From Bacteroidia bacterium (GTDB lineage: Bacteria > Bacteroidota > Bacteroidia > Bacteroidales > Prolixibacteraceae), in contig JANYJT010000209.1 in the NCBI GenBank assembly GCA_025358395.1, forward strand, positions 1 through 13,375: a DNA stretch of 13,375 nucleotides. Direction: 5' to 3'. Position numbers and translations under genes: made by a program. The number at the start of each line of letters is the position of its first letter. Position 1 is the first letter of the stretch. A model generated the notes under the pieces. That model did no database searches. It was not told the DNA's origin and was given only the letters and a program-made list of their open reading frames with translations. Below are positions 3,194 through 10,432 of the stretch, piece after piece.

Positions 3194-3236
3194 GCTTCAC
3201 ACCTGACAGGTTTAGAAAACCTGTCAGGTGTGAAGC
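3194..3236. repeat. REP-like palindrome, copy 1 (overlaps transposase 3' end)
   Basis: Arms of 20 bp (3194-3213 and 3217-3236) enclose the loop AGA. The arm core is CTTCACACCTGACAGGTTT. On the minus strand the arm reads CTT CAC ACC TGA in the transposase frame, so the palindrome supplies the transposase's last codons and stop. It begins 74 bp upstream of the ThuA-PmoA start. The 41-nt core (3195-3235) equals copy 2 in reverse complement. Confidence 0.95.
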
Positions 3237-3874
3237 AGCCAATTTTCAATTCTTTCCATTTCAATTTTTTGATTGTGCAAAAGTTTAAAATTTGCAGCAT
3301 TATCGAACCAGCCAACAACTGATTCCCTGTTAAGTTTGGTTGGTTTCACTGATATGCAGGTCAGATAGCTACTCCACGGATAATCCATCGAATGTTCCCG
3401 AAAACCATGATGAATAGGATTGTTGTGAATATATAGAATGACTTGCTTTAAATAGAAAATCTCATCGATTTTTTTTCGTTGAAACGGTCTTTCAAACAGT
3501 GCTCCATGACGATGGAATCTTTTGTTGATTGCCTTTGTGTAGGCATTAAATAAGTTGGAAAAATATTGGTGGGGTGACTTCACACCTGACAGGTTTTCTA
3601 AACCTGTCAGGTGTGAAGATGAGATTAGAATTTCGTCTATTTCTTTTATTCGGACTAGGAAGTGAAAATGATTGGGCATCAGAACCCAGGCAAAAGTCTC
3701 TGCAATCGGTGAAATGTAATGATCATAAAGGTTCATAAAGTATTCATAGTTTTCGATCTCCCTAAACAAATTGCAACTATTGATACCACGATTGTATATG
3801 TGATAATAATTACCAAATGACAGCTCCTCGAAATTTTGCATGATATATTGTATCAATTGTATGTAAGTTACCAT
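3224..3874 (-). CDS. REP-associated-type tyrosine transposase (Y1_Tnp, IS200-like) with in-frame palindrome
   Basis: Single-strand DNA transposase of the HUH/Y1 class, RAYT-like, 216 aa. The N-terminal YYHIYNRGIN block is typical. The metal-binding HUH motif is H69-F70-H71 within MPNHFHFLVRI. The likely nucleophile is Y112 in NLFNAYTKAINKRF, followed by the common GALFERPFQRK and YIHNNPIHHGF blocks. Family members nick and join single-stranded DNA at hairpins, and RAYTs are linked to dispersed REP palindromes. Residues 86-99 (SHLTGLENLSGVK plus an edge residue) are translated from palindrome copy 2, inserted in the linker between the HUH motif and the Tyr helix without breaking the frame. The stop codon lies in copy 1. 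The start is uncertain: ATG at 3874, or ATG at 3841 (M12), which fits the usual short N-terminus better. It sits between the divergent ThuA-PmoA and URO-D genes, as an insertion would. Whether it is still active is unknown; the motifs are intact. Confidence 0.85.
   Translation of the reverse strand: MVTYIQLIQYIMQNFEELSFGNYYHIYNRGINSCNLFREIENYEYFMNLYDHYISPIAETFAWVLMPNHFHFLVRIKEIDEILISSSHLTGLENLSGVKSPHQYFSNLFNAYTKAINKRFHRHGALFERPFQRKKIDEIFYLKQVILYIHNNPIHHGFREHSMDYPWSSYLTCISVKPTKLNRESVVGWFDNAANFKLLHNQKIEMERIENWLLHT
3578..3618. repeat. REP-like palindrome, copy 2 (inside transposase gene)
   Basis: Arms of 19 bp (3578-3596 and 3600-3618) flank the loop TCT. It is a 41/41 reverse-complement match to the core of copy 1. 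In the transposase frame both arms are open, encoding residues 86-99. I see no convincing target-site duplication beside it. Confidence 0.95.
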
Positions 3875-3885
3875 AAATTATTCAT

Positions 3886-3930
3886 TTTTTCACACCTGAC
3901 AGGTTTCCAAAACCTGTCAGGTGTGAAAAA
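3886..3930. repeat. REP-like palindrome, copy 3 (between transposase and URO-D gene)
   Basis: Arms of 21 bp (3886-3906 and 3910-3930) enclose the loop CCA. The outer end differs from copies 1 and 2 (TTTTTCACACC instead of CTTCACACC); the inner 16 nt are the same. It starts 12 bp before the first possible transposase ATG and ends 43 bp before the URO-D ATG, so it lies in the leader or promoter region of both. Confidence 0.95.
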
Positions 3931-3973: not shown

Positions 3974-5008
3974 ATGACAAACCAACAATGGGATTCATTG
4001 GTTGCATTGGTCGAAGGGAGAAGCACCAATAAAAAGGAGATCGGATTTATCATTGACAGTCCGTGGTTGCCCGGATGGGCCGGAATTTCGACGATAGATT
4101 ATTACTCATCAGATGATATATGGCTGAAAACCAATTTAAAAGCAATAGAGCTATTCCCTGATGTTACCTTTCTGCCCGGATTCTGGTCGGAGTATGGCAT
4201 GTGCACGGAGCCCTCCGCCTTTGGTGCACGGTCCGTCTGGTACGAAGCCAATCTGCCACATGCTGAGCGGGTAATTCATTCCGATGAAGACATCGAAAGG
4301 TTGCCCCAACCCAATGTCACCAGCGATGGATTGTTGCCTTTCATGATCAACAGGTTGAGGCTTATGGAACCGGCTATCCGGCAAAATGGTCACGAGATTA
4401 AATTTGCAGTCACACGCGGTCCGCTGAATATTGCCACTTTTTTAATGGGAACCTCTGAATTTATGCTTTTGTTGGCCATGGATCCGGATAAGGCGCACCA
4501 ATTAATGGAGAAAATCACCAAATTTATTGAGGATTGGGTCAGACATCAGAAAGCCTGTTTTCCTTCCATCGAAGGGGTGCTTTTATTGGATGATATTGTT
4601 GGTTTTGTCGGAGAAGACGAGTGCCGGGAATTTGTTGTTCCTTACATCAAGAGATGCTTCGGTGCCATTGATTCCAAGATTGGATTCTTCCACAATGATG
4701 CATTTGGTTTGACTTGCACCCCTTTTCTGAAAGAGATGGGTGTGAACCTTTTTAACTTTGCCTTTGATCATCCTATCAATCAGATCAGAGAACTCGCCGG
4801 ACCGGATGTTGCACTGATCGGCAATTTGCCGCCACGTGATGTGCTTTCCGCCGGTAAGCCCGAAGAAGTTTATACAGCCACACAGACTATGATGAGAGAA
4901 GCCAACGATCACAGCCGGATGATCTGGTCTTGTGGTGGAGGAATTCCGCAAAATGTCCCGACAGAGAATTTGAAGGCATTCGTGAAAGCGGTAAAGGATT
5001 TTGAGTAA
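3974..5008 (+). CDS. Uroporphyrinogen decarboxylase family (URO-D/MtaA-like) protein
   Basis: Cytosolic TIM-barrel protein of 344 aa from the PF01208 superfamily, which covers HemE and the corrinoid methyltransferases MtaA/CmuA. Landmarks are IIDSPWLPGWAG near the N-terminus, the VTRGPLNIATFLMG segment, the LLLDDIVGFVGEDECREFVVPYIKR segment, H240-N241-D242 where zinc methyltransferases have H-x-C, and C320-G-G-G-I-P near the C-terminus. The missing second zinc Cys argues against a classical MtaA reaction, and there is no haem gene context, so the substrate is unknown; a catabolic or demethylation role is only a guess. I chose the ATG at 3974. The frame stays open back to 3836, but that extension runs through palindrome copy 3 and aligns with nothing I know. 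GAAAAG about 9 nt upstream may be a weak ribosome site. The paralogue array follows after 72 bp on the same strand. Confidence 0.8.
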   Translation: MTNQQWDSLVALVEGRSTNKKEIGFIIDSPWLPGWAGISTIDYYSSDDIWLKTNLKAIELFPDVTFLPGFWSEYGMCTEPSAFGARSVWYEANLPHAERVIHSDEDIERLPQPNVTSDGLLPFMINRLRLMEPAIRQNGHEIKFAVTRGPLNIATFLMGTSEFMLLLAMDPDKAHQLMEKITKFIEDWVRHQKACFPSIEGVLLLDDIVGFVGEDECREFVVPYIKRCFGAIDSKIGFFHNDAFGLTCTPFLKEMGVNLFNFAFDHPINQIRELAGPDVALIGNLPPRDVLSAGKPEEVYTATQTMMREANDHSRMIWSCGGGIPQNVPTENLKAFVKAVKDFE

Positions 5009-5020
5009 CTTTAGTTCATC

Positions 5021-5078
5021 AAATAGCCAATTATTCCATAAGATAGCCACTATTATTCACACAGCCAATTCATACATC
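5021..5078 (+). repeat. Degenerate ~20-bp tandem repeat before the small-protein array
   Basis: The spacer reads as three degenerate units beginning at about 5021, 5041 and 5061. Each contains AGCCA followed by an AT-rich stretch with ATTC or ATTATTC. The following start region AAATGACCAAC resembles the unit's beginning (AAATAGCCAAT). Period is near 20 bp with several mismatches. No function is evident. Confidence 0.4.
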
Positions 5079-5080
5079 AA

Positions 5081-5491
5081 ATGACCAACACTTTCGAACT
5101 CAAAAAAGGAAAGCTCGTTTTCGAGGATGACAAAATCCTCATCACCGATGATGCAAAAAACCGCAAGCGCATGCGACTCATTTCAGCCATCTTATTGCTC
5201 GCTTTAGGTATTTATAATTTCAGTAAGTATATAAAGACCAACGATGACCATATTTTATGGAACAGTCTTATTGTTGGAATTGCAGCAATCGTGCTAATTG
5301 TCACTGCACTTTTGGTAAATGTTCAAAGTGAAATTAATTTGAGGGAGGTGACTTCCTTGAAGATTAGGCGAATTCTGTTCAGGGAATTTCTTGTTATTAA
5401 GACTGCCAAAAAGGGAACCAGGCAAGTTGTTGGAATCTTCAATACGGAAAGGCTCGAAGAATATATCTCTACAATATCGCTTCCTAAATAA
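5081..5491 (+). CDS. Small two-TM membrane protein, intact unit A of a tandem family
   Basis: I do not recognise a named family. The 136-aa protein begins with a charged FELKKGKLVFEDDKILITD block, then has two adjacent hydrophobic helices (about residues 30-47 and 63-85), then a soluble part SEINLREVTSLKI...FLVIKTAKKG...IFNTERLEEYI. The order of short beta-like strands followed by a final amphipathic helix resembles bacterial PH-like domains interrupted by a TM hairpin; that is a structural guess from pattern only. It is the sole complete member of three adjacent copies and defines the ancestral layout. The next unit starts 6 nt after its stop, so the two are probably co-transcribed, perhaps also with the upstream URO-D gene. 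Confidence 0.75.
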   Translation: MTNTFELKKGKLVFEDDKILITDDAKNRKRMRLISAILLLALGIYNFSKYIKTNDDHILWNSLIVGIAAIVLIVTALLVNVQSEINLREVTSLKIRRILFREFLVIKTAKKGTRQVVGIFNTERLEEYISTISLPK

Positions 5492-5497
5492 TTTCAA

Positions 5498-5989
5498 ATG
5501 ACCAGGACATTCGAACTCAAAAAGGGTAAGATTGTATTCGAAAAGTACAAAATTGTCATAACCGACAACGCCAGGATTCATCGGAGTATAAGGTTATTTC
5601 TCTCGGCATCTGCGATAATTTTAGCATTAACCTCTGCTATCGCCTATTTTACAACAGGCGATCAGTATGAATGGTGGCTTGGTGTTGATAAGGAAGGACT
5701 CCGCGAATTCATTTGTGAAGAATCACTATCAAAACCTCTCTTCGGGCAAAATACATTTGAATTGAAGAAGGGGAAAATTGTGATTGACGAAGACAAGATT
5801 ATCATCACGGATATTGCAAAACAACAAAGGCTTCAGATGCTATTACTTGCTGGTTCGGGGATGCTTTTGGGAACGTCTTATTTGATTGGATATTTTAAAA
5901 AGGGAGACCAGTTTGGGCTTTGGTTTATTTGTTGTGCTAGCCAATATTCAGATTTTTGTAGTCTTTTTTCTGCGGTCTGTAATAAGTGA
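5498..5989 (+). pseudogene. Fused, degenerate units B and C of the small two-TM protein family
   Basis: The 163-aa open frame joins two decayed copies of unit A. Unit B (5498-5734) keeps the FELKKGKIVFEKYKIVITD block and first TM segment but lacks about 57 residues, including TM2 and most of the soluble part. It jumps from GDQYEWWLG straight to DKEGLREFICEESLSK, the counterpart of the C-terminal helix in A. Unit C follows in the same frame. Where A has TAA, 6 nt and ATG, B-C has CCT, 6 nt and GGG (5735-5746), so stop and start are both gone in perfect register. C then matches A through its first TM and GDQFGLW, after which the frame shifts near 5924 and ends in an unrelated tail. The ORF may still be translated, but its product would be abnormal. 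Confidence 0.7.
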
Positions 5990-6176
5990 AATTTCCTTGA
6001 ACGAGGTTAAATCAATGATAATAAAAAAAAGAGCCGGCAATGAATTTTTGGACATCAAACTTCACAACAACAGAATCAGAAGGGTTACTGATATATTTAA
6101 TCCTGACAGACTCAAGGAATACATTGATGCACTTCTCGATACCAAAATTGAATCTGATCTTCAAGAAAAACAATAA
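5886..6176 (+). pseudogene. 3' remnant of unit C after a frameshift
   Basis: This frame carries the rest of unit C: TM2 (LFVVLANIQIFVVFFL), then SEISLNEVKSMIIKK, the FLDIKLHNN strand and FNPDRLKEYIDALLD, aligning with SEINLREV, FLVIKT and FNTERLEEYI of unit A. It joins the preceding frame if one base is removed around 5918-5930 (T/G-rich GGTTTATTT context). The only upstream start is TTG at 5886, so independent translation is doubtful. A single-base sequencing or assembly error would also explain it; corrected, unit C would have a complete body but still no ATG of its own. Confidence 0.65.
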
Positions 6177-7893: not shown

Positions 7894-10314
7894 ATGCGTC
7901 AACACTTAAATGCAATTTTTCTTTGCAGTCTGCTTTTCACCTGCCAATTAAACCTTCTCGCCCAAAAACAATTACAAGGAAATATTTCAGGTTTAATCGT
8001 TGAAAAATCGTCGGATAAACCCCTTGAGTTTGCACAAATTATTCTTAAAACGACCAATGATTCTGCGTTTGTGCAGGGTACTGTTGCCGATAAAAGTGGA
8101 AAATTCGTGTTCGAAAAAGTTCCTCCTGGTGAATACCGGTTAAACTATAGTTTTATAGGGTTTGAAAGTGTAACAACCTCATCTATAATCATTACAGGTT
8201 CAAAAAATAAGATAAATCTGGGAAAATTGTATATTGCCGAAACGGCAAAAACCCTAAATGAAGTGGAGGTGACAGGCCGTAAATCAACCTTCGTTAATTC
8301 CATCGACCGCAAGACTTTTAATGTAGGGGAAGATTTAATGAGCAAAACCGGTTCTCTGAGTGATTTGCTGCAAAATGTTCCCTCGGTACAGGTTGATATT
8401 GATGGAAATGTCAGTCTGCGCGGATCTGAAAATGTAACTATTCTTATCAATGGTAAACCTTCCGCCATGATGAACCTGAACAGGGCTGCCATATTGCAGC
8501 AAATTCCTGCCAACTCTATCGAGAAAATTGATGTGATCACCAATCCTTCGGCCAAGTACAAGCCGGATGGCACTTCAGGAATCATTAATATCGTATTGAA
8601 GAAAAATAAAAGCATGGGGCTTAATGGAAATGCGAGTCTCAACATTGGTAATGAGAACCGTTACAACAGCAATGTTACGGTTAATTACAATCCCGGAAAA
8701 TGGAATTTTTATGGGAGTGCCGGCCTCAGGCAGGATGCCCGCCAACGAATCAACGATGTTTCTACCCAAACTTTTCAAAACGGCAGGGAGGTCTCTTTCA
8801 TCATGAACCATTCACAAAGTGATGCAAGGCCTATCAGTAACATTGCAGGACTGGGAGCAGACCTAAAATTGAATGATAAAAACAAATTTGGAATCTCTGC
8901 CAACTACAATTATCGCTTTCAAAGGCAAAATGATGTTTCTGTCTACACCATTGACAGTCTTTCATTTAAAAAGGAGGATTACAACCGTGACAGGTACCTG
9001 CCGGAAATGGAATCTGATCTTGAATTATCTTCTATTTATCAGCATAATTTCGGCAAGGAAGGCCATGATTTGAATGTAAATTATACCCGATCTTTTACCG
9101 GGGAGAACGAAGATAATTATTACACAAATATTTACCGGATTCCCGGAGCCTATGTTTATTTAGACAATATGCTTTATCACCATTCAAATACCGAATCCCA
9201 ATTTCTGGCTGAATACGCCAATCCACTTTCTGAGAGTTCCAAACTGGAAGCGGGTTTTGAGCTGGATAATCTCAACAACAATATGGATCTCCAACGGGAC
9301 ACTACGGCCAAAAATAAAACCATTTTTGTCAGAGATATTTCGCGGTCTAACCAGTTCATTCGTTCCGAACATACACAGGTATTGTATGTAACTTTCGAAA
9401 AAGAGATGGGTAAGTTTGGGTTCCTGGCAGGACTTCGTGGTGAACTGACTTCTACCAGCGCCAATCTTGTCACTAAAAATACGGTCGTCAAGAACCAATA
9501 CAACCGACTTTATCCAACACTGCATACTTCCTATAAAATATCGGAGGAGCATGAATTACAGCTCAATTACAGTCACCGGATTCGCAGACCGGAGGACGAG
9601 CAACTCAATCCTTTTCCTGAATATCAGGATATGCACAATATCCGCGCCGGAAACCCTTACTTGAAACCGGAGGATATTCATTCTTTTGAATTTGGCTATC
9701 AACTCAAACGAAAATCAACCACCTTTCTGTCAACAGCCTATTGTCGGTTCAATTACAACGGCATTACCTCCATAACCAAAACCAGCGGGGATACATTAAT
9801 CTCCACACTTCAAAATCTGGGCAAAAGCACCTCTGCCGGACTCGAATTCATCTTAAGTACCAGTTTTGGAAAGTTGGCCACACTCAATCTTAGTTCAAAT
9901 ACTTTCTACAACGTCATTGATGCCTCTGCTTTGGGGTTTAGCACGAACAAAGCTGCAATTTCCCTTTCGTTTAATGGGAGTCTGGGCATAAATCTAACCA
10001 AAAGTACTGTCTGGCAGATTACCTCAATTTATACAGGTGAACAACTTACTCCTCAAGGTAAACGACTGCCTTCCTTTGTGCTTAATACCGGACTGAAACA
10101 GGATCTGTTTAAAAAGAAAGCTGCTTTTATTTTGACTATTTCGGATGCCTTCAATTCCTTGAGAAATAAATCAGTCCTTGATACCGCCGATATTCAGCGG
10201 TATGAAAATCGAAAACGAAGTGACCGCATCATCTACTGTGGGCTTACTTACAACTTTGGCACCAATGGCAAAAAAGCGAAAGATAATTCGTTGAAGTACG
10301 ATAATCAACTCTGA
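7894..10314 (+). CDS. TonB-dependent receptor-like outer membrane beta-barrel protein
   Basis: Outer-membrane protein of 806 aa. A signal peptide ends near A23 (LNLLA-Q). Residues about 27-113 form a CarboxypepD_reg-like/CNA-B-type domain (GLIVEKSSDKPLEFAQI, then GTVADKSGKFVFEKVPPGEYRL and YSFIGF). A plug-like domain follows (LNEVEVTGRK, SLSDLLQNVPSVQVDIDGNVSLRGSENV, INPSAKY-type block, GIINIVLKK). The rest is a long barrel rich in alternating aromatic strands, resembling the OMP_b-brl_3 group rather than the larger SusC proteins. No SusD partner is present, so glycan import cannot be claimed; the substrate is unknown. The last barrel-like strand is near IIYCGLTYNF, followed by about 20 charged residues. 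The gene begins with ATG at 7894 after a terminator, so it is probably a separate transcript, and its stop codon is the first element of a heptanucleotide repeat. Confidence 0.9.
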   Translation: MRQHLNAIFLCSLLFTCQLNLLAQKQLQGNISGLIVEKSSDKPLEFAQIILKTTNDSAFVQGTVADKSGKFVFEKVPPGEYRLNYSFIGFESVTTSSIIITGSKNKINLGKLYIAETAKTLNEVEVTGRKSTFVNSIDRKTFNVGEDLMSKTGSLSDLLQNVPSVQVDIDGNVSLRGSENVTILINGKPSAMMNLNRAAILQQIPANSIEKIDVITNPSAKYKPDGTSGIINIVLKKNKSMGLNGNASLNIGNENRYNSNVTVNYNPGKWNFYGSAGLRQDARQRINDVSTQTFQNGREVSFIMNHSQSDARPISNIAGLGADLKLNDKNKFGISANYNYRFQRQNDVSVYTIDSLSFKKEDYNRDRYLPEMESDLELSSIYQHNFGKEGHDLNVNYTRSFTGENEDNYYTNIYRIPGAYVYLDNMLYHHSNTESQFLAEYANPLSESSKLEAGFELDNLNNNMDLQRDTTAKNKTIFVRDISRSNQFIRSEHTQVLYVTFEKEMGKFGFLAGLRGELTSTSANLVTKNTVVKNQYNRLYPTLHTSYKISEEHELQLNYSHRIRRPEDEQLNPFPEYQDMHNIRAGNPYLKPEDIHSFEFGYQLKRKSTTFLSTAYCRFNYNGITSITKTSGDTLISTLQNLGKSTSAGLEFILSTSFGKLATLNLSSNTFYNVIDASALGFSTNKAAISLSFNGSLGINLTKSTVWQITSIYTGEQLTPQGKRLPSFVLNTGLKQDLFKKKAAFILTISDAFNSLRNKSVLDTADIQRYENRKRSDRIIYCGLTYNFGTNGKKAKDNSLKYDNQL

Positions 10315-10382
10315 GACATGAGATATAAGACATAAGACATAAGACATGAGACATGAGACATGAGACTTGAGATAAAAGAGAT
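10313..10382 (+). repeat. Heptanucleotide tandem repeat, ten units of RAGACAT
   Basis: Ten consecutive 7-bp units run from 10313 to 10382: GAGACAT, GAGATAT, AAGACAT three times, GAGACAT twice, GAGACTT, GAGATAA, AAGAGAT. The array begins at the second base of the TGA stop of the barrel gene. Outer units are more diverged than the inner five. Of the 10315-10484 spacer, the remainder is T-rich sequence and a direct repeat just before the next gene; I see no gene or clear terminator. Confidence 0.9.
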
Positions 10383-10432
10383 GAATATCCGGATTTTGGA
10401 TTTTTTTGATTTTATTCAGAACTTACGTACTT

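Follow-up and report, generated by a model that had tools for sequence, protein, structure and literature searches.

In-frame REP-like palindromes in RAYT genes of Bacteroidota covary with residues of the encoded transposase

A palindrome of 41 nt occurs three times in the stretch of DNA analysed here (13,375 nucleotides of contig JANYJT010000209.1, hereafter the window). Two copies flank a RAYT-like open reading frame (ORF), and the third interrupts it. The locus raises the question of how a transposase gene comes to carry, within its own coding sequence, a repeat of the same family as those at its borders, and whether the sequence of that repeat is tied to the protein it interrupts. The features concerned are as follows.

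3224..3874, minus strand: RAYT-like Y1/HuH transposase ORF of 216 aa, matching NCBIfam NF047646 under the curated cut-off
3662..3670, minus strand: codons His69-Phe70-His71 of the HuH motif
3578..3618, no strand assigned: internal palindrome, built as an inverted doublet and spanning codons 86-99; it falls in the loop that separates the HuH strand from helix C
3533..3547, minus strand: helix C codons 110-114, including Asn110 and Lys114, which covary with stem positions 5-6 and 4
3488..3490, minus strand: codon Arg129, covarying with stem positions 8-10
3431..3433, minus strand: Tyr148 of the YIHNNP motif, most likely catalytic by alignment with Tyr115 of E. coli TnpA-REP
3888..3928, no strand assigned: upstream palindrome, between the RAYT gene and a divergent URO-D gene (start placed at 3974)
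3195..3235, no strand assigned: downstream palindrome, overlapping the RAYT stop codon

The internal copy has perfect 19-bp arms around a 3-nt centre and is translated in frame as SSHLTGLENLSGVKS. Such an in-frame palindrome within the transposase gene was the core of the original prediction, and it stands, the gene being flanked on each side by a copy of that family; the repeat core was also correctly described as open in two of three frames on either strand, the remaining frame containing stops. The downstream copy is the reverse complement of the internal one over all 41 nt and overlaps the end of the ORF by 12 nt, covering the last three codons and the stop. An inverted orientation can hardly be assigned to the flanking copies, which are symmetric except for the short centre. 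Folded as RNA, the internal copy reaches -32.4 kcal/mol (z -9.5 against dinucleotide shuffles). A single arm folds weakly (-1.4 to -3.1 kcal/mol), against -21.3 kcal/mol for the whole window palindrome. The window also contains repeats of other kinds. At 1418-1483, the 3' ends that two convergent genes share form a perfect inverted repeat (31 bp, 4-nt spacer), which encodes the last residues of both; TGAGACATAAGACA-like short tandem repeats spaced by 14 nt (10312-10388) stand right after an 806-aa ORF; and related short ORFs are arranged in tandem at 5077-6176 (a 72-nt repeat, 79% identical), the second appearing frameshifted by eye.

The ORF matches the NCBIfam model NF047646 (REP_Tyr_transpos; E 7.5e-14, 51.8 bits, under the curated cut-off of 80), which all 53 aligned relatives match at E <= 0.001, while a profile search at E 0.001 returned no Pfam family. 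The protein carries the HuH and single-tyrosine signature as NHFH and YIHNNP, and N57-H58-F59-H60 together with Y137-I138-H139-P142 (205-aa numbering) are invariant across 53 sequences. Judging from the N-termini of relatives, translation likely starts at the second Met (3841). In the AlphaFold model (mean pLDDT 70.5, with much of the C-terminal part also below 50), the palindrome-encoded insert is placed between the HuH strand and helix C. The model gives a strand at 58-65, a helix at 90-109 and pLDDT below 50 at 78-85 in the 205-aa numbering; residues 89-96 of the 216-aa numbering used hereafter are likewise below 50. The original prediction had set the palindrome between the HuH motif and a catalytic Tyr112. 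The position holds and the residue does not: Tyr112 falls in helix C of the model, and the catalytic tyrosine is most likely Tyr148, which pairs with Tyr115 of E. coli TnpA-REP in three alignments, one of them weak (E 0.19). Tyr115 is itself taken as catalytic because N119 is placed about four residues past the catalytic Tyr (PMC6006769; here and below, published work is cited from the parts of each paper that were accessible). The genome contig search returned one locus, viral contigs gave no match, and none of the 6 plasmid records found reached 80% query coverage.

Among order-level genomes, 56 of 393 contain relatives of the gene at E 1e-40; among class-level genomes, 58 of 395 do so at E 1e-25. 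Leaving out duplicate loci (L001, L009, L011 and L018), 3 of 142 gene groups for coverage and 9 of 139 genes with unrecognised motifs gave a set of 130 Bacteroidota RAYT genes. An internal palindrome is present in 53 of these 130, and 77 have none at the threshold used. The palindromes are concentrated in the loop between the HuH motif and helix C: this loop makes up 22% of the gene length and holds 55 of the 57 in-gene palindromes. Three rounds of codon shuffling of all 130 genes produced 0, 0 and 0 palindromes against the 57 real ones, although a few of the 55 loop palindromes, such as those of L024 and L081, resemble chance ones. Of the 55 palindrome centres, 36 share one codon phase, 12 share another and the remaining 7 are in further phases; the different frames yield different peptides, LTGFENLSG and PDRVSNPVR among them. 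Two related RAYTs of one genome (L006 and L034) read the palindrome in different frames. Mapped on the tree, palindrome presence requires at least 27 changes (gain and loss pooled), and the two main frames at least 10 changes between them. A single ancestral insertion was considered and is unlikely, given these numbers. An arrangement so widespread and recurrent is also more than the mere snapshot of ongoing spread that had been suggested for the window. Phylogenetically independent pairs are uninformative on the association of internal with flanking presence. Four of the fetched stretches (L059, L049, L061 and L107) contain two RAYT genes each, with loops that differ.

Palindrome sequences diverge strongly between loci and tend to agree inside one locus. 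Across 38 loci, the similarity is 0.774 within loci against 0.555 between them (0 of 5000 permutations as high), and the relationship persists when protein identity is accounted for (partial Mantel r 0.45, p 0.0005). The agreement is partial: a locus's own flank is the best match of its internal copy in only 17 of 38 loci, and in L140 the internal copy is unlike its flanks. In L028, palindrome arrays with a spacing of 63 nt lie on both sides of the RAYT gene, in a BIME-like arrangement. The elements share a common anatomy. Each arm is itself a dyad: pairing of position k with position 18-k holds in 89% of cases, and registers other than this one give 7-45%. By this sequence comparison, the unit is an inverted doublet of the dyad A-R-M-YY-T-NNN-A-RR-K-T-T, about 15 nt, around a short centre. 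No clear GTRG foot is seen on the Bacteroidota palindromes: one stands near an end in 15 of 211, against 10.6 expected from shuffles, a comparison made without a significance test.

The palindromes are not confined to RAYT loci. The CCTGACAGG form occurs in 16 of 25 genomes at 0 to 18 copies per genome, with 0 matches to a reversed control. The original prediction would have lost ground had the host genome no further copies of the repeat; the count covers the relatives' genomes, many of which contain further copies, and in some of which the palindrome is present at the RAYT locus only. In a grid of 18 genomes by four palindrome types, the top counts pair a genome with the type that its own RAYT carries: the CCTTCAAGG type has 28 copies in G523 and 23 in G577, the CTTTTCCAAAG type 24 in G433, and the CCTGACAGG type 14 in G337. 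Against this match, CCTGACAGG is present six times in G264, whose internal type is present only once; in G066 a type differing from that of its RAYT (L046) reaches four copies, and in G400 another type outnumbers that of its first RAYT. G655, G774 and G490 have zero copies of all four types tried. These counts (0 to 28) are exact matches to the patterns tried, in which variants are missed, and represent a lower bound. No RAYT-like gene was found in the fetched stretches around 66 dispersed copies. The distance to an ORF end is no more than some tens of bases for many dispersed copies, and of the 66 examined, which come from 9 relatives' genomes, 9 lie in large ORFs, in agreement with the expectation that the repeat can land in other genes as a short peptide. 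Among the 43 and 23 copies examined, each a subset of those listed, 8 of 43 (7 genomes) are in frame in 7 large ORFs, including those of CHAT-domain, Por secretion-tail and Eco57I-like proteins. Of the 23 (2 genomes), 4 are in ORFs of at least 80 aa, namely one class I tRNA synthetase and three probably spurious short ORFs. The synthetase gene, with its in-frame palindrome peptide, is at L208:592-2601. In another case, two similar secretion-tail proteins of the same genome (L165:954-2801 and L163:919-2601) have the in-frame palindrome at a common site, and one of them contains a second copy.

The sequence of the internal palindrome follows particular residues of the protein. A correspondence between K or Q in the protein and T or G in the stem was first noticed by eye, and a scan of the filled protein columns against stem positions 2-12 came later. 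Training used 49 of the 130 genes, internal palindromes with a score below 12 or a centre above 5 nt having been dropped. For internal copies, residue 114 with position 4 ranks at the top of the scan, with residue 110 (positions 6, 5 and 12) next and residue 129 (position 9) after it. For flanks, the top rank is taken by residue 169, which carries very little information, followed by 110; 129 also stands above 114, and 114 with position 4 is sixth. In the training genes, Lys114 goes with T at position 4 in 23 of 24 cases and Gln114 with G in 23 of 23.

The rule was written down before it was applied to new genes (113 loci and 112 genes, after exclusion of 13 refetched loci). An internal palindrome is present in 29 of the 112, and the residue 114 rule is right in 29 of 29. 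Identity to the nearest training gene is at most 69% for all but one of these 29 proteins (the exception is at 95%), and some of the 29 are mutually close. Residue 110 behaves similarly in the new genes, N going with GG in 19 of 20 and S with AA in 5 of 6. Taken over all internal copies, the 76 genes with K or Q keep the residue 114 rule with a single exception (75/76; K with T4 40/41, Q with G4 35/35). An even centre occurs in 2 of 78 internal palindromes, and rounding it the other way makes one Q gene read T. For residue 110 the combined counts are 47/52 for N with GG and 18/19 for S with AA; residue 129 shows a looser fit, with R accompanied by C[AT]G in 19 of 23. The window conforms to the three rules, combining K114, N110 and R129 with T4, GG and CAG. 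Shared ancestry is accounted for most fully at residue 114: this residue and position 4 each change at least 21 times on the tree, and all 11 supported independent pairs point in the same direction (p 0.001). Residue 110 has only 5 supported pairs (p 0.06), and R129 against C[AT]G gives a median p of 0.016.

Flanking palindromes obey the residue 114 rule less strictly. When all of them are counted, K goes with T in 34 of 42 loci and Q with G in 21 of 30, and the new genes give 32/46 and 25/35 copies. For REP-like flanks, the proportions are 29/34 and 20/23 beside genes with an internal copy (K with T only 5/10 in the new genes alone), and 34/36 and 25/30 beside genes without one. Of 79 loci, 7 have no REP-like flank that keeps the rule, a count that omits residues other than K or Q, position 4 letters other than T or G, and flanks without REP-like character. 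The location of the covarying residues in the protein is plausible, since K82 of the DNA-binding helix alpha3 contacts a base in the stem in E. coli TnpA-REP (Corneloup 2021, PMC8266576). The exact correspondence of residues is uncertain: hhalign finds no partner for helix C in the E. coli RAYT, and K82 corresponds to residue 118 by MAFFT, but to 114 when two F-S pairs are aligned by eye.

Several explanations other than recognition by the RAYT might be offered for the internal copies. That the loop peptide is conserved for the sake of the protein, with the palindrome as a by-product, appears highly improbable and was rejected. An LTGxxNLSG-like peptide is indeed found in 75 of the 120 best homologues. 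Eight LTGxxNLSG motifs, however, use nearly the same codons, other frames yield different peptides, and the palindromes resemble the flanking copies; some relatives, including the close relative P0097, have no such peptide at all, which speaks against its being a conserved part of the fold. We give equally little credence to the copies being ordinary terminators of transcription, or hairpins in mRNA that have no connection with the RAYT. Their strong folding as RNA and the many dispersed copies some tens of bases from an ORF end are what a terminator would show, but one copy is inside the gene, the sequence follows RAYT residues, and on the RAYT strand the 15 nt that follow each of the three copies in the window contain no run of five or more T.

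Two further explanations account for the match between copy and protein itself. The internal copy might be kept for a function: by binding to this hairpin, whether in the gene or in its mRNA, the RAYT would regulate itself, and the copy would have to match. The strength of the RNA hairpin and the stricter adherence of internal copies than flanking ones to the residue 114 rule are in its favour, yet more than half of the genes have no internal palindrome at the threshold used, and the REP-like flanks of such genes are nearly as strict; on balance we think self-regulation rather unlikely. A little less likely still is the exchange between RAYT genes of a segment containing the palindrome and the helix C codons, by which substrate and residues would change jointly. 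In the window, about 130 nt are enough to contain both the palindrome and codons 110-129. The beginning of codons 110-114 is no more than about 50 nt away from the palindrome, a distance at which joint transfer could inflate the internal match. Loop type and residue also go together among the best 120 homologues, with K in 72 of 75 genes with LTGxxNLSG loops and Q in 19 of 20 with PDRVxNPV loops (the remaining 25 have K in 18 and Q in 7). Linkage within the gene nevertheless is not the whole cause, because the flanks of genes without an internal copy obey the rule as well.

We consider it probable that the palindrome is the RAYT's own REP-like recognition element, repeatedly inserted at a permissive loop and kept matched to the specificity of the protein. 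Comparison across genes establishes the location of the internal copies, their frame and recurrence, their partial concerted evolution with the flanks and the covariation of residues with bases. The recognition reading would have residue 110 contact stem positions 5-6 and residue 114, on the same face of helix C, contact position 4, with residue 129, just before strand beta4, contacting positions 8-10. The elements may be inserted and exchanged by RAYT activity, probably on single-stranded DNA as in relatives. The insert might be tolerated in the loop because it is away from the active site and open in two of three frames, and the internal copy could be kept matched through turnover, selection or both when specificity changes. 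A stronger version, possible but tentative, would combine a three-part code, in which residue 114 specifies pair 4, residue 110 pairs 5-6 and residue 129 letters 8-10 in mid-arm, with retention of the in-frame substrate copy as a functional part, serving either self-regulation or the joint transfer of enzyme and substrate. If such a code is true, REP specificity would become predictable from protein sequence.

If such a gene carries its own substrate, each genome supplies a matched pair of enzyme and substrate. Such pairs give a directly testable residue-to-base rule, and they let one ask whether a selfish element within the gene of its own enzyme is a passenger or a control element. REP choice by RAYTs has been studied biochemically in two groups (PMC8266576). 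In-frame REPs in RAYT genes are already published, and the phenomenon as such is not a new one: Quentin 2018 (PMC6006769) describes them within tnpAREP genes of subclass 2.4, generally between the HuH and Y motifs and in a region distant from the active site. What is new here is the recurrence at the loop in Bacteroidota, the anatomy with no clear GTRG foot and the residue-to-base rule. The accessible parts of Quentin 2018 contain no such rule, and no such code for this RAYT group was found in the literature searched, which lacks most subscription papers.

The closest known system is TnpA-REP subclass 2.4, or RAYT group 4 (PMC6006769), in which REPs likewise flank the gene and sit inside it in frame. 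Its in-frame REP occupies a variable insertion between beta3 and helix C, as seen in the window model and in the internal-palindrome genes of our set, and Bacteroidetes are among its hosts; the window's NHFH and YIHNNP fit the subclass motifs NH[IFV]H and YIxNNP. Unlike the REPs described for that subclass, which have a GT[AG]G tetranucleotide or double foot, the palindromes reported here seldom carry one. As in gammaproteobacterial REPtrons and BIMEs (PMC2817692, PMC8266576), where TnpA-REP and REP are said to co-evolve, the RAYT gene is bracketed by its REPs. In the gammaproteobacterial systems the REPs most often follow a GTAG and a genome contains hundreds to thousands of them, against the 0 to 28 exact copies that form our lower bound. 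Like intragenic REPs and the Rickettsia palindromic elements (Di Nocera 2013, PMC3733652), the Bacteroidota palindromes enter unrelated genes in frame as short peptides. They differ from those elements in that one recurrent in-gene home is the transposase gene itself, whose residues their sequence tracks.
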